Assembly (NCBI GenBank): GCA_015222855.1
Contig: JADFWA010000039.1
Span: 1 to 10,289, forward strand
DNA from: Pseudomonadota bacterium
GTDB lineage: Bacteria > Desulfobacterota > Syntrophia > Syntrophales > JADFWA01
DNA length: 10,289 nucleotides
Direction: 5' to 3'
Numbering within the stretch: position 1 is the first letter of the stretch; each line of letters starts with the position of its first letter. Below, one piece after another: positions 5,746-10,289 of this stretch. The position numbers were made by a program, and so were the translations under genes. The notes beneath the pieces are model-generated. The model had not been told where the DNA came from. It saw only the letters and a list, made by a program, of their open reading frames with translations, and did not search any database.

Positions 5746-6356
5746 TAGAGAAAAATGTATTGACGGATTTTAGTTCCAGGGTGTCGGAGCCGGTAATTGA
5801 TGCTTCTACCTATGTTCATCCACAGGCTGCCGTTATAGGGAATGTAATTCTCGGGAAAAACATTCTGGTCTCGCCGATGGCGTCCATACGTGGTGACGAG
5901 GGGCAGCCGCTTTATGTCGGCGATGATTCGAACGTTCAGGATGGAGTCATCATCCATGCCCTGGAAACCGAGCATGATGGGAAACCGGTGGAAGGGAACC
6001 TGTATGAAGTTGACGGCAAAAAGTACGCTGTTTATGTGGGAGACAGTGTGTCGTTGGCCCATCAGGTCCAGATCCACGGACCTGCCGTTGTTATGGATGA
6101 TACCTTTGTAGGGATGAAGGTGTTGGTTTTTAAATCTTTTGTGGGCAAAAATTGCGTAATTGAACCCGGAGTTATCCTTATGGGGGTGACCGTGGCGGAT
6201 CGCCGCTGTGTTCCCGCGGGTTCTGTAATAAATACACAGGAACAGGCGGATAACCTCCCGGAAGTAACGGACGATTATCCCTTGAAAGATTTGAACAAGG
6301 GTGTTGTTCACGTTAATACGTCACTGGCGAAGGCTTATCTTAAAAGAGAGCAGTAA
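5742..6356 (+). CDS. Gamma-class carbonic anhydrase, Cam type
   Basis: A 204-residue left-handed beta-helix (hexapeptide repeat) enzyme interconverting CO2 and bicarbonate, closely resembling the Methanosarcina Cam enzyme. The three zinc/iron ligands are present: H72 (HALET), H107 (LAHQ) and H112 (IHGP), matching Cam H81, H117 and H122. Other active-site counterparts are visible: R50 and D52-E53 (IRGDEG), Q66-D67, N192 and Y199. The acidic-loop Glu (E75 in HALETE, like Cam E84, the proton shuttle) is kept, which marks true Cam rather than the shorter CamH group. The archaeal leader peptide is absent, so it is likely cytoplasmic. ATG 5742 is chosen because GGAGG lies seven bases upstream inside coaE and the ATGA overlap is typical of coupling; an earlier in-frame start at 5703 would lie inside coaE with no benefit. 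Confidence 0.94.
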   Translation: MIEKNVLTDFSSRVSEPVIDASTYVHPQAAVIGNVILGKNILVSPMASIRGDEGQPLYVGDDSNVQDGVIIHALETEHDGKPVEGNLYEVDGKKYAVYVGDSVSLAHQVQIHGPAVVMDDTFVGMKVLVFKSFVGKNCVIEPGVILMGVTVADRRCVPAGSVINTQEQADNLPEVTDDYPLKDLNKGVVHVNTSLAKAYLKREQ

Positions 6357-6392
6357 TCTCCATACTGTCCGGTACAATAATTGCTCGATTTA

Positions 6393-6675
6393 AAATTGTA
6401 GGGGTGGGGTTTATCCCCACCCGCGGGTAGGCTAAATAGGGAGGGCATAAAGCTCTCCCCTACATCTCAATATAGCGTAACCGGGGACAGCCATAAATTT
6501 GCAGGGGCGGGGTTTATCCCCGCCCGTGGGGTAGGCTAAATAGGGAGGGCATAAAGCCCTCCCCTACATCTCAATATAGCGTAACCGGGGACAGCCATAA
6601 ATTTGTAGGGGCGTGGTTTATCCCCGCCCGCGGGTAGGCTAAGCAGGGAGGGCATAAAGCCCTCCCCTACATCTA
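6393..6675. repeat. Three tandem copies of a ~103-bp double-hairpin element
   Basis: Copies start near 6393, 6495 and 6599 (marker GTAGGGG or GCAGGGG at 6398, 6501, 6605, so a period of 103-104 bp). Each holds stem A, GGGGCGGGG-TTTAT-CCCCGCCC or a variant, a GGGTAGGCTAA linker, and stem B, GGGAGGGC-ATAAA-GCCCTCCC, then CCCTACATCT. Copies 1 and 2 continue through a conserved tail CAATATAGCGTAACCGGGG to ACAGCCATAAAT; copy 3 lacks it. TAGGGG/CCCCTA ends bracket the hairpin pair as an outer inverted repeat. Stem A of copy 1 has T-A where copy 2 has C-G, a compensated change; copy 3 has one mismatch, and stem B of copy 1 has one G-T pair. No protein gene is credible from 6357 to about 6680. The stems lack T-runs, so they are not ordinary terminators. 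Confidence 0.88.
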
Positions 6676-6680
6676 GTTGC

Positions 6681-6941
6681 GATAACCTATCGCGGCCATC
6701 ATTCAAAAATTTAGCCGGTGTGTTGCGTTCGGTTATGCCCGAAGGGGTGAGTGAAGAGCGCCTGATGCTCAACATCTTAAGCATATTCGGCATGGTGCTT
6801 TATTTTAACTTTGCCCGTGTAGCGGTTACACAGATGACCGGCTGCCAATATGACCAGGCTTTCAAGGCGCGTCTGGTGGAACATATAACCGATTTTTCCC
6901 TTACAGGACTGGGTGTAAGCAAGGAGGAGGAATCCCGGTGA
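6681..6941 (+). pseudogene. TetR-family regulator remnant, C-terminal ligand-binding half only
   Basis: In-frame residues from about 6681 (DNLSRPSFKNLAGVLRSVMP) through LNILSIFGMVLYFNFARVAV to LVEHITDFSLTGLG resemble the C-terminal domain of TetR regulators of the CecR/DUF1956 type, which commonly sit beside efflux genes. The DNA-binding HTH half is missing: upstream is only the repeat array, and the carbonic anhydrase gene ends at 6356, leaving no room. The frame is open upstream only to a TAG at 6606 inside array copy 3. The first usable start, GTG 6720, has no ribosome site. Its TGA (6939-6941) overlaps the GTG of the outer-membrane factor gene, and its last codons hold that gene's ribosome site, showing an old regulator-pump operon. 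The exact upstream edge of homology is uncertain. Confidence 0.65.
6921..6930 (+). promoter_or_regulatory. Strong ribosome binding site fixing the GTG start of the outer-membrane factor
   Basis: AAGGAGGAGG contains two overlapping perfect AGGAGG cores, ending seven bases before GTG 6938. It is the only good site near the gene and lies outside the inserted element, so it shows the native start codon and the original signal peptide phase. Confidence 0.85.
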
Positions 6942-8560
6942 AGCGAGACCTTTGCAAAACATTTCCTTTTGCCCAATTTCAATTAGAGGCGAAAGGCGAA
7001 AGGCGAAGGGTGAAGGGAAATAGAAAAAACCTTTTGCCTTTTGCCCTACATGTATTCCTGCGGTTAAAAACTTCAAGTTTTTTTGCACGGACAAACAAGT
7101 TTGTCCATGCCACGAACGAGATTGGACATTTTGCAAAGGCCTCGAAGCGTTCGTATCTTTTTCTTCCCGCGATCCTGGGAATTTTACTTATAATGAGCGG
7201 ATGCATGAAAATGGGTCCGGATTTTCAGCGGCCCGACACGGGGGCAGGGGTGCCGGAAACGTATCAACACGCTCATGTCGATAAAATCTCTGTTCAACCA
7301 GAGGACCGGTGGTGGACCATTTTCAACGATCCGGAATTGAACCGGATTGTGGAGCAAGTCCTGAAAAACAACCTGGACATCAAAAAGGCTGCGGCCAGGA
7401 TTCTGGAATTGCGGTCCCATTTTGTCCAGACCAGAGCCGACCGATTTCCCGGTTTAAGCGTGAAGGGTGAAGGTGGAAGGCAGCGCGTTTCCCCAGGCGT
7501 TGAGACGGATGTCTACAATCTTTCTCTGCCTGCTTCCTTTGAGCTGGATTTCTGGGGACGTCTGGCCCGGGCTCAGGAGGCTGCGCGGGCCGATCTCACA
7601 CAGGTGGAGGAAAATGCCCGCATCGTGGCCCAAACGGTAGCAGCCGAGGCGATTACACTTTACCTGGAGATGGAATCCCTGGAACGGAGGATTCAAATAA
7701 CAGAACAAAGTGTGGAAAATTACCGGCGTAACCTGGCCCTGGTGGAAAGGCGCTACGAAGGGGGTCTGACTTCCATTCTTGATTTGAGGCAGTCGCGCCG
7801 CGTCCTGGCCCAGGCTGAGGCATTCCTTCCCTCACTGCGGCAGGATCTGGGAATCAGGCAGCAAAAACTGGCCGTTCTCCTTGGACATTATCCGGGAACC
7901 AGACCGCCCAGGTCTCAACCGGAAGACTATTTTAAACGTCTCGCCCCGGTGCCGCCGGGGCTGCCCTCTGATCTCCTCTTGCGACGGCCGGATATCAGAG
8001 CGGCGGAGGCGAATTTGAGGGCGCTAAACGCCCGTGTGGGCGTTGCCAAGGCCAGCAGATTCCCCCGGATTACCCTGACGGGAAGCTTTGGCTACTCTAG
8101 CAGTGAACTTGACCGGCTCTTCCGGCCCGAGAGCGAGCTGTGGAATATTGCCCTTGGTGTTGCGCGGCCCCTTTTCGATGCCGGAAAATTGAAGGCCGGA
8201 CAAAAGGCCGCCGAGGCAAGGTACAAACAGGAACTGGCCGAATACGCGAAGACGGTATTGACGGCATTTTCCGAGGTGGAAAGGGCACTCCTGACGCGGA
8301 AGGAACAACTGGAAAGGCGGGATCGGATAATGAATTTTCTCATGGAGGCCCGTGCCACCCAGAAGGTGGCCGAGAGCCGTTATGAGAGGGGGCTGGTGGA
8401 TTACCTGACCGTTCTCGATGCCCAGCAGACCCGGTTTCAGGCTGAAGAAAATGTAGTCCTCGTTGACTTGGCCATTCTCAGCAATCGTGTTACACTGCAC
8501 CGCGCACTGGGCGGCGGGTGGGCCGACCCGACTATGCCGCGTCGAGGGAAGGATTTGTAA
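6938..8560 (+). CDS. RND efflux outer-membrane factor (NodT/TolC-type lipoprotein) with a 68-residue N-terminal insertion
   Basis: A 540-residue outer-membrane channel subunit of a tripartite RND pump, NodT-type lipoprotein subfamily. The mature protein starts at Cys89 of lipobox MSGC, after hydrophobic YLFLPAILGILLIMSG. Two OEP repeats follow (about 120-310 and 325-530), with hallmarks RWWTIFNDPELNRIV, LLLRRPDIRAAEANL, FPRITLTGSFGY, and GLVDYLTVLDAQQT near the end. The length beyond the insertion (472) is normal for the family. Residues 4-71 are encoded by a MITE-like element plus its target duplication; they are basic and unlike any signal peptide. Joining codons across the element gives MKRSYLFLPAILGILLIMSGC, a textbook type II signal, so export of the present product may be impaired or depend on a long n-region. 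Start GTG 6938 is fixed by AGGAGG. The adaptor gene follows after 36 bp. Confidence 0.93.
   Translation: MKRDLCKTFPFAQFQLEAKGERRRVKGNRKNLLPFALHVFLRLKTSSFFARTNKFVHATNEIGHFAKASKRSYLFLPAILGILLIMSGCMKMGPDFQRPDTGAGVPETYQHAHVDKISVQPEDRWWTIFNDPELNRIVEQVLKNNLDIKKAAARILELRSHFVQTRADRFPGLSVKGEGGRQRVSPGVETDVYNLSLPASFELDFWGRLARAQEAARADLTQVEENARIVAQTVAAEAITLYLEMESLERRIQITEQSVENYRRNLALVERRYEGGLTSILDLRQSRRVLAQAEAFLPSLRQDLGIRQQKLAVLLGHYPGTRPPRSQPEDYFKRLAPVPPGLPSDLLLRRPDIRAAEANLRALNARVGVAKASRFPRITLTGSFGYSSSELDRLFRPESELWNIALGVARPLFDAGKLKAGQKAAEARYKQELAEYAKTVLTAFSEVERALLTRKEQLERRDRIMNFLMEARATQKVAESRYERGLVDYLTVLDAQQTRFQAEENVVLVDLAILSNRVTLHRALGGGWADPTMPRRGKDL
6940..6944. repeat. Left target-site duplication GAAGC
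   Basis: GAAGC immediately before the left inverted repeat matches GAAGC at 7144-7148 immediately after the right one. Removing one copy plus the element restores the codons GTG AAG CGT TCG TAT. Confidence 0.75.
6945..7143. mobile_element. MITE-like element, 199 bp, with 15-bp terminal inverted repeats
   Basis: The left end GAGACCTTTGCAAAA (6945-6959) is the reverse complement, with one mismatch, of the right end TTTTGCAAAGGCCTC (7129-7143). A 5-bp direct repeat GAAGC flanks it on both sides. The interior has no transposase and contains the direct-repeat run AGGCGAAAGGCGAAAGGCGA, CCTTTTGCCTTTTGCCC that could partly pair with it, and a perfect 8-bp palindrome GGACAAAC-AA-GTTTGTCC (7089-7106). 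Size, ends and duplication fit a non-autonomous element moved by a transposase encoded elsewhere; I cannot name the parent family with confidence. It sits inside codons 3-4 of the outer-membrane factor gene, and element plus duplication (204 bp) keeps the frame with no stop. Confidence 0.8.
7144..7148. repeat. Right target-site duplication GAAGC
   Basis: Second copy of the 5-bp duplication, directly after the right inverted repeat and followed by GTTCGTATC, the resumption of the native signal-peptide coding sequence. The match to the left side extends by one base (GAAGCG), so the exact element edge could be shifted by one. Confidence 0.75.
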
Positions 8561-8596: not shown

Positions 8597-9802
8597 ATGA
8601 TTTTCAAAAAGCTATCTGCCATGAGCAAGAAAAAGAAACGTCTTTTTCATTTTGCCGTCACCATGCTCTTCATCATCGTGGGGGTCGCCGGTTTAATCGC
8701 ATTGACGGCAAGTAAATCTCAGCTGGAGAAATCAAGGCATGTTGCCCCCATGCCCATGGTCAGGGTGATTAAGATACATACGGGACCCAAATCTATACAT
8801 ATCCGGGGTGAGGGCACGGTGAGACCGCTCAGGAAAATCAATCTTGTTCCTCAGGTGGGAGGCAAAGTGGTTTATGTTTCCCCTGCTCTGGTCGACGGAG
8901 GGGAATTCCGCAGAGGTGATACATTACTTACTATAAATCCGGTGGATTACGAGTTGGCCGTTACCCTGGCCAGGGCCAGAGTGAAGGATTCGGAAAGCAA
9001 ACTCAAGATAATACAGGAAGAGGCCGCGGTGGCACAGGAAGAGTGGTGTGTCCATTATGCCGGCAATTCCGATACACAAAAAAAGGCGCCACCCCTTGTG
9101 GCCAAGGAACCGCAACTGGCGGCTGCCCAAGCTCAGCTTGATGCCGACCGGGCGAATCTGAAAAAGGCCTTTCTGAACCTTGAAAGAACGGTACTCAACG
9201 CTCCGTTCGACGGTCGTGTAAGTGAAAAAAATGTAGATGTGGGGCAATATGTATCACCGGGGCAGACCTTGGCCGCCCTCTATTCCACCGATGCGGCAGA
9301 GATTGCCGTGCCGCTGGAAGACGAAAACCTGTTCTGGTTTGACGTGCCGGGATTCACTCCCGGAAATGCCCCCGGATCTTCCGCAACGGTCAGGGCAAGG
9401 CTTGCCGGACGTGATCTCGTCTGTCCGGGAAGGGTCGTTCGCGCTGAAGGTGAGCTGAATGAAAAAACGCGGATGATCAATATAATCGTGCGGGTGGATA
9501 AACCCTATGCCAGGAAACCGCCCCTTGCCATGGGTCTCTTTGTAACGGTGGAAATCGAAGGACGTGTTCTGCCCGCCGCCGCCGTCATCCCCAGAACGGC
9601 CCTCCACCAGGGTAACGTGGTCTGGGTGGTGAATGGTGACGGGGTGCTCCGATTCCGCAAAGTGGATGTGGCGCACCACCAGGGTGAAGGGGTCATCGTC
9701 CGGTCCGGTCTCAAGGACGAAGAGATGGTTGTTATCTCTCCACTCAAGGCAGTTACTGACGGTATGGTTGTACGGACTGCGATTATAAAGGAGCCGAAAT
9801 GA
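8597..9802 (+). CDS. RND efflux periplasmic adaptor subunit (membrane fusion protein, HlyD/AcrA type)
   Basis: A 401-residue adaptor that bridges the inner-membrane pump and the outer-membrane channel. A basic N terminus (KKKKR, 11-15) and one membrane anchor (about 17-38) place the rest in the periplasm. The first half-lipoyl segment is around 80-115 (INLVPQVGGKVVYVSP). A helical hairpin follows (about 118-195), rich in Ala/Gln/Glu and carrying a 20-residue loop-like stretch around CVHYAGNSDT. The second lipoyl half is TVLNAPFDGRVSEKNVDVGQ (198-217), then the beta-barrel and membrane-proximal domains (about 232-398, with IPRTALHQGNVVWVV). ATG 8597 is used because AAGGAAG lies upstream; M9 has no ribosome site. 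The stop overlaps the next start (ATGA), so translation is coupled to the pump gene. Confidence 0.95.
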   Translation: MIFKKLSAMSKKKKRLFHFAVTMLFIIVGVAGLIALTASKSQLEKSRHVAPMPMVRVIKIHTGPKSIHIRGEGTVRPLRKINLVPQVGGKVVYVSPALVDGGEFRRGDTLLTINPVDYELAVTLARARVKDSESKLKIIQEEAAVAQEEWCVHYAGNSDTQKKAPPLVAKEPQLAAAQAQLDADRANLKKAFLNLERTVLNAPFDGRVSEKNVDVGQYVSPGQTLAALYSTDAAEIAVPLEDENLFWFDVPGFTPGNAPGSSATVRARLAGRDLVCPGRVVRAEGELNEKTRMINIIVRVDKPYARKPPLAMGLFVTVEIEGRVLPAAAVIPRTALHQGNVVWVVNGDGVLRFRKVDVAHHQGEGVIVRSGLKDEEMVVISPLKAVTDGMVVRTAIIKEPK

Positions 9803-10289
9803 AGGGAGCCATCGCCTGGTTTGCCGAGAATCGCGTCGCGGCCAACCTGTTAATGATGTTTTTGATACTGGCCGGTGTCATCACGTGCACGACCATAAAA
9901 CTGGAGATTTTTCCCGAGACTTCTCTGGACCGTATTTCCATCACCACGGAATATCCGGGCGCTTCTCCCGCCGAGGTGGAGGAGGCCGTCATCCGGCGGA
10001 TCGAGGAAAGGCTGTCCGGTCTGGCCGGCATAAAGCGGATTGATTCCACAGCCCGGGAAGGACTCGGTGTCGTGACCATTGAGGTCATGAAGGACTGGGA
10101 TCTGAAGAAGCTCCTCGATGAGGTAAAGGCCGAAGTTGACCGTATCACCACCTTCCCGGATGAGGCTGAAAAGCCCGTGGTCCGCGAGGTAACCCGCCGG
10201 GTCGAGGTAATCAATCTTGCCGTTTATGGCGACGTTCCAAAATCGACAATCAAATATTTAACGGAAAAGATCAAAGACGACATTACAAA
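9799..10289 (+). CDS. RND efflux inner-membrane transporter, N-terminal part (3' end outside window)
   Basis: The first 163 codons of an AcrB/MexB-like proton-driven pump. It starts MKGAIAWFAENRVAANLLMM, with the first membrane helix about 10-32, then the periplasmic porter domain: FPETSLDRISITTEYPGASP, the EVEEAVIRRIEERL helix and GLAGIKRIDSTAREG, all usual for RND permeases. AAGGAG five bases before ATG 9799 and the ATGA overlap with the adaptor gene fix the start. The window ends inside the porter domain, so substrate class (drug, metal, solvent) and the catalytic membrane aspartates cannot be seen. It completes the gene order channel-adaptor-pump. Confidence 0.95.
   Translation, partial: MKGAIAWFAENRVAANLLMMFLILAGVITCTTIKLEIFPETSLDRISITTEYPGASPAEVEEAVIRRIEERLSGLAGIKRIDSTAREGLGVVTIEVMKDWDLKKLLDEVKAEVDRITTFPDEAEKPVVREVTRRVEVINLAVYGDVPKSTIKYLTEKIKDDIT

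Follow-up and report, generated by a model that had tools for sequence, protein, structure and literature searches.

How can a mobile element that lies almost at the start codon of a gene for an exported protein leave that gene open, and what would become of the protein? The window, by which we mean the whole 10,289-nt stretch analyzed here (contig JADFWA010000039.1 of a Syntrophales draft genome), raises this question with a MITE placed in frame within an outer-membrane factor gene (Table 1). The initial annotation had described a 199-bp element with 15-bp inverted ends and a GAAGC target-site duplication (TSD), and this description was confirmed: the two ends are identical at 14 of 15 positions (94% over 16-nt arms). 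When the window was scanned for 15-bp inverted pairs (≤1 mismatch, spacing 30-400 bp) flanked by an exact 5-bp TSD, the structure was unique, and none of 60 dinucleotide shuffles contained one. Element and duplication together do amount to 204 bp, or 68 codons, without a stop in the frame of the factor gene, and the ORF of 540 aa is open from GTG 6938. The near-start, in-frame position was also correctly placed, but the exact break falls inside codon 3 and not in codons 3-4. An Rfam search of the window yielded no family at the gathering score.

Table 1. Features of the window around the inserted MITE.
Feature	Position	Strand	Remarks
Palindromic repeat, 104-bp unit, 2.7 copies	6391..6674	.	A repeat other than the MITE; occupies the place of the repressor N-terminal part
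TetR-family repressor, C-terminal remnant	6693..6941	+	
Shine-Dalgarno-like AAGGAGGAGG	6921..6930	+	Upstream of GTG 6938
Outer-membrane factor, NodT/OprM type, 540 aa	6938..8560	+	N terminus extended by the MITE
TSD GAAGC, left	6940..6944	.	
MITE, 199 bp, mosaic	6945..7143	+	Ends of the 142-bp family, GGCGAAA-type heptad repeats, nested palindrome
Left terminal inverted repeat GAGACCTTTGCAAAA	6945..6959	+	
Possible in-frame GTG start within the MITE	7010..7012	+	Preceded by aaaggcgaaaggcgaagg from the heptad repeats
Palindromic stretch around GGACAAACAAGTTTGTCC	7086..7113	.	Nested in the MITE; near-exact matches elsewhere in the genome
Right terminal inverted repeat GAGGCCTTTGCAAAA	7129..7143	-	
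TSD GAAGC, right	7144..7148	.	
Native lipoprotein signal KRSYLFLPAILGILLIMSGC	7145..7204	+	Now begins at residue 70
RND periplasmic adaptor, intact ORF	8597..9802	+	
Next operon ORF, start only	9799..10287	+	Truncated where the contig ends; putative RND permease, judged from its place and look

The interrupted gene encodes a recognizable outer-membrane factor (TIGR01845, 362.5 bits, cut-off 210.05; OEP domains and the NodT model above cut-off) whose best solved relatives are SilC, OprM, and CusC. Compared with NodT/OprM/CusC factors it carries 68 extra N-terminal residues. The signal peptide had been placed about 70 residues into the present protein, and this was borne out. The predicted lipobox, LIMSGC, has its cysteine at residue 89 (codon 7202-7204), where signal peptidase II would be expected to act. 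The empty site is found in G001, a genome of the same genus (contig JAUVKS010000032.1). Here a 472-aa factor gene, 83% identical to the window protein over 453 aa, starts MKRSYLFLPAILGILLIMNGC without the element, directly behind a complete TetR gene of 217 aa, and its lipoprotein signal has the same residues except for one S/N difference. Four more distant orthologues (G034, G049, G004, and G057; 70-74% identical) also start shortly before the signal, so that every orthologue inspected lacks the added N terminus; at a further locus, L306, the N terminus is the same as in G057.

The inverted ends recur elsewhere in the genome, as the initial annotation had expected. The genome contains 19 exact and 22 one-mismatch sites, the two of the window included, against a single site for the reversed pattern used as control. 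A first scan for convergent pairs (up to two mismatches per end) returned 14 pairs at 37-205 bp and one spaced at 1195 bp on contig C323, and nine copies in this genome, the window copy among them, pass the TSD rule. The commonest form of the element is 142 bp long; that of the window is longer and mosaic. We counted 81 copies with a TSD (≥4/5 bases identical), spread over 13 genomes of the order, in the loci that were fetched, which do not amount to a census; the hand counts were 9 in the genome of the window (G000), 12 in G001, 4 in G002, 9 in G018, 14 in G032, 2 in G049, 1 in G051, 2 in G069, 1 in G080, 1 in G081, 5 in G133, 14 in G134, and 7 in G135. Within the class, 41 of 155 genomes contain the exact end sequence. 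The window element shows all four marks of a MITE, namely inverted ends, a TSD, multiple copies without an internal transposase gene, and an empty site in G001.

Two further repeats touch on this family. The palindromic stretch nested in the window MITE is a second short repeat family; among the matches listed (40 of 88 candidates scored; query 149-176 or 142-176), it is matched at 93-100% at six other places (C317 twice, C394, C183, C170, and C10). In G032 (loci L116-L135), with 90 exact end repeats, MITEs of approximately 195 bp share the ends and, by eye, not the interior, and they make up another high-copy family built on such ends. Length plus 5 is divisible by 3 in 64 of 81 copies, many of one 142-bp lineage; counted by distinct length the figure is 15 of 30 against 10 expected, and the idea of selection on element length was rejected since the signal is weak once counted in this way.

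The ends of the MITE are identical to those tabulated for ISNme1 of the IS5 family in PMC4596501, and a Kingella primer given in PMC5070880 also matches the end sequence. Other genomes of the order contain related full-length elements that have similar ends and 5-bp TSDs (L196, L199, and L211); L199 has the ends GAGACGTTTGCACAA...TTTTTCAAAGGTCTC, a GCGGG duplication, and a transposase scoring 178 bits on the IS5 model NF033581 (cut-off 140). Judged by these shared ends, the window element is classified as a non-autonomous IS5-type MITE. No autonomous partner was found in its own genome, which is 80.6% complete, and the partner may be missing from the assembly. PF01609 gave no hit there; 14 hits in six of seven genomes were rejected as partners since no convincing pair of such ends accompanied them, and at L164 two one-mismatch ends in the same orientation lie near a PF01609 hit. 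The sole DUF772 gene of the genome (G000:C288) was likewise dropped, having no matching pair of ends. PF05598 matches occur in 65 of 154 genomes, and the loci checked for ends were the 30 given and three fetched stretches. At L222 (G080:C73:5500-8600) an exact end repeat and a short DUF772 fragment lie approximately 1 kb apart and may be the remains of an autonomous partner.

If such an insertion can be carried at the start of one exported protein, it should be asked where other copies lie. The flanks were put through a register test, which requires ≥100 codons in total and ≥8 behind the element and so misses shorter genes; it flagged 28 of the 81 copies as possibly genic. All 28 were inspected by eye, and the flank or whole proteins of 8 of these loci were scanned against Pfam. 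Five of the 81 copies were judged to be in frame and free of stops inside a gene, and four of these five lie in the n-region of a signal peptide. In all four the element stands between start codon and hydrophobic core. The first is the window gene. The second is a lipoprotein that matches neither Pfam nor NCBIfam (G000:C342), MKPDISL[48 aa]LRRPSIWTLLLIILLLSTGC; the third, a NicO-domain protein (G135:C24), MN[48 aa]NRLPVITLTILLLLACASQANA; and the fourth, an outer-membrane-type PF13557 protein (G081:C52), MLKLRNNHLRRILS[element]IIFLSAIFWSIF. The window, C342, and G135 copies share strand and frame of the element; the G081 element differs in being 157 bp long and read in another frame, and its TSD agrees at 4/5 bases. 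The fifth open case, L279, is a degenerate rmlA-like gene.

These n-region elements offer few ways to remain open. The numbers of stop-free frames are 2, 1, 1, and 1 of 6, and the chance that all four would be open at random orientation and frame is approximately 0.0015, a naive product and a rough one, as the genic assignments depended largely on visual inspection. Among the 28 flagged copies, none was recognized as an n-region insertion that breaks the frame. Orthologues of the C342 protein were found in 2 of 40 other genomes (70 and 65% identical; none in G001), and they start upstream of the insertion point, as do the four inspected (70-84% identical) of six hits to the G081 protein in 39 other genomes. 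For the G135 protein no orthologue was found in 40 other genomes.

Other genic copies were judged to be frame-broken: L079 at the 3' end of an aminotransferase gene, L228 in a gene of the 23S IVP type (below the Pfam cut-off), L247 in an S1-domain gene, and L162 (G001:C186) after codon 4 of a TRAM-domain gene. In the last of these, stops lie in frame and the start is apparently disrupted, so an insertion near the start is not benign in every case; one more stop-free frame, the sixth, lies on the minus strand of L162 and was dropped as antisense to the gene. Among the remaining flagged loci, L045, L119, L134, L157, and L303 were dropped by eye because the gene starts behind the element or the frame looks antisense or non-coding. 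The same grounds applied to L085, L130, L133, L233, L261, L276, and L277, and to L290, L293, L299, L300, L301, and L236. L129 (2263-2455) was counted neither as open nor as broken. At L072, L085, L121, L122, and L156 a frame is open through the element, and these were set aside for want of a supportable gene start before it.

Similar fusions are found in database proteins. With the N-terminal parts of the proteins from C342 and G135 as queries, a search of 5.8 billion sequences retrieved ten distinct proteins, one of which (P0001) is C342 itself; run from the window protein, the search returned nothing homologous to its extension. We read the other nine as seven putative insertions, four before signals, one ambiguous, and two in other proteins. 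In the first group the MITE peptide directly precedes a hydrophobic segment: a TPR lipoprotein (P0004/P0010), a protein with a prepilin-like leader, so labeled from its sequence (P0005), P0007, and a PF16811 lipoprotein in a cluster of 24 sequences (P0008). P0009 (PF03548) is ambiguous, with a methionine directly behind the element, and neither P0006 (PF14907) nor P0002/P0003 (transposase-like by eye) has the look of an exported protein. From P0005, prepilin leaders may tolerate the same insertion. P0004 and P0010 are identical at 45/50 positions of the MITE part, 12/20 of the signal, and 136/178 of the mature part. Unusual residues common to both MITE parts were noted by eye, which suggests one ancestral insertion, although gene conversion is a possible source of the likeness. 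Across the genic 142-bp copies and the metagenome proteins the encoded peptide is conserved, in the frame RDLCKTxPFxQ...HF(A/S)KVS.

How much of the element is translated differs between cases. In the window gene at least part of it must be translated, and G081:C52 requires read-through, as do P0005 and P0008 as far as the protein sequence shows. Read-through is not forced in G135:C24, P0004/P0010, P0007, and perhaps C342, because there a possible start codon directly follows the element.

We propose that the n-region tolerates the insertion. An IS5-type MITE would have entered the outer-membrane factor gene closely downstream of its GTG, duplicating 5 bp; the copy lies in one of the two of six orientation and frame combinations that leave the ORF open. 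Translation would still begin from the native Shine-Dalgarno sequence and GTG, adding 68 residues before an unchanged lipoprotein signal. The precursor would be targeted by its own native signal, and signal peptidase II would cut off MITE peptide and signal together. The mature protein would stay unchanged, as the extension, being on the positively charged, cytoplasmic side of the signal, would be removed with it. The first 70 residues have a net charge of +12, and the native hydrophobic segment is the strongest of the extended protein (2.39 vs. 1.06 for the best MITE segment). In the 142-bp cases the MITE stretches reach 1.91 and 2.01 against native values of 2.35 and 2.61, and this stronger stretch might interfere with targeting. 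A long charged n-region before an ordinary signal is also the form of the extended signal peptide regions (ESPR) of some autotransporters; the likeness is one of n-region form alone, and unlike the ESPR the region described here derives from a mobile element. We consider it probable that the n-region is a permissive coding site at which the same event has recurred in other exported proteins; the recurrence itself is observed, and selection is what we infer from it. More tentatively, n-regions may be the preferred surviving niche of this IS5-type MITE, translated there in its single stop-free frame and then discarded by lipoprotein, type I, or prepilin signal peptidases, and in at least one lineage (P0004/P0010) the MITE-derived n-region may have become a conserved part of the precursor.

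The strongest competing explanation is that the pump is being lost, with the MITE among several hits that a decaying operon has recently taken and the open frame a matter of luck. The repressor gene, a feature absent from the initial annotation, has lost its DNA-binding part and retains the C-terminal 82 residues behind the 104-bp repeat array; the stop codon of this remnant (TGA 6939-6941) overlaps the GTG of the factor gene (6938-6940). In G001 the orthologous repressor is intact, with TetR_N and CecR_C domains. Counted by eye, the remnant has 11 differences from it in 82 residues, so the loss looks recent. No sigma-70-like promoter site was found in 6300-7250, against a mean of 1.1 in shuffles, and the operon may be silent, derepressed, or driven from upstream genes. 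Moreover, 199 + 5 would be divisible by 3 by chance in one case out of three, and another in-frame copy sits in the decayed rmlA-like gene. Against such decay, the factor and adaptor ORFs are open without clear acceleration. On the G000 branch the factor gene has 24 amino-acid against 34 synonymous changes, on the G001 branch 36 against 55 (a further 18 amino-acid differences and 33 of the 122 synonymous ones could not be polarized); the corresponding figures for the adaptor gene are 21:20 and 19:21, with 11 amino-acid differences unpolarized. Constraint on the factor gene thus appears not to be visibly relaxed on the G000 branch, though the insertion may be too young to have decayed. In G004 (L090, G004:C110) most of the same tetR has been lost, apparently independently of the window, and the factor gene is still open, so repressor loss alone does not show a dead pump. 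Together with the recurrence of in-frame n-region insertions, this makes loss of the pump somewhat unlikely. The initial annotation had left it open whether the extension is tolerated, changes export, or disables or attenuates the pump; similar constraint on the two branches and the recurrence lean to tolerance, and expression may still have been lost through the damaged repressor and upstream region.

A quite unlikely alternative is that translation restarts inside the MITE or at its edge, so that the element acts as a mobile ribosome-binding site and the protein carries a shorter extension or none. The heptad repeats do provide AAAGG-type ribosome sites (before GTG 7010, where the site is aaaggcgaaaggcgaagg, and TTG 7034), and a shorter window precursor from either codon is possible. 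The terminal repeat also ends AAAGGYCTC, which resembles a ribosome site and lies near some gene starts, e.g. in P0009, and in some other copies a potential start codon closely follows the right end. However, over 156 element ends with room (ORFs of at least 90 codons) the first start codon fell at 0-9 nt in 11 cases vs. 4, 6, 7, 8, and 8 in the next 10-nt bins, and the idea of a mobile ribosome site was rejected for lack of a clear excess. Use of ATG 7193, the first in-frame start codon past the element in the window, would remove the signal, and the native Shine-Dalgarno sequence and GTG look strong. Both are unpaired in the centroid fold, with the ribosome site partly paired in the minimum-energy fold, and the start-region stretch folds better than shuffles (z = -3.2). 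That two unrelated contigs were joined at the repeat during assembly is very improbable: some contigs of the draft genome do end in partial copies of the element, but the TSD is exact and both flanks match one continuous G001 locus.

The element's class and in-frame MITE fusions are already known, and it is the n-region niche that is new. Type II MITEs of the IS5 family, as described in PMC4596501, include the Neisseria ATR (with ISNme1) and the Porphyromonas BrickBuilt elements (with ISPg1). Like these, the MITE described here is short, has no transposase, and exists in several copies, with ends equal to those of ISNme1, the ends being the part compared, and, as in BrickBuilt, an internal minisatellite in the window element. 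Unlike the variable duplications given there for BrickBuilt, its 5-bp duplications are regular, and unlike the type II elements of that account it has no matching autonomous IS that we could find in its own genome. Rickettsia palindromic elements, as reported in PMC10969869 and PMC2229807, are inserted in frame in many unrelated genes; they share with our element the short mobile repeat, the in-frame position in genes, the stop-free frame, and the conserved peptide. Unlike them, most in-frame cases here lie in signal n-regions and most copies lie outside genes, frequent gene-body insertion of that kind not being seen among the 81 copies (five open in genes, four in n-regions). In the enterobacterial RU-1/RU-2/RU-3 fusions, e.g. 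YPO1552, MITE-like ORFs are fused in frame (Delihas 2007, PMC2759123), and in the cases outlined there the repeat helps to build the signal, whereas here a complete native signal stands behind the MITE peptide, with an empty site for the window gene. Small mobile elements fused in frame are also mentioned for Coxiella (PMC5896051). In the literature covered, which was open-licence texts with subscription papers mostly outside, we found no report of repeated n-region insertion that leaves a complete native signal.

These comparisons bear on how such elements survive in coding sequence. Proteins with in-frame mobile elements are known, but how the product could still work is usually difficult to see. 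Proteins extended by a MITE may also be misjudged by gene callers and signal predictors. The extended proteins would form a natural series of very long signal-peptide n-regions in which the tolerance of Sec and of signal peptidases could be tested. An n-region that is cleaved off would explain why such insertions survive and would predict where others should be looked for.
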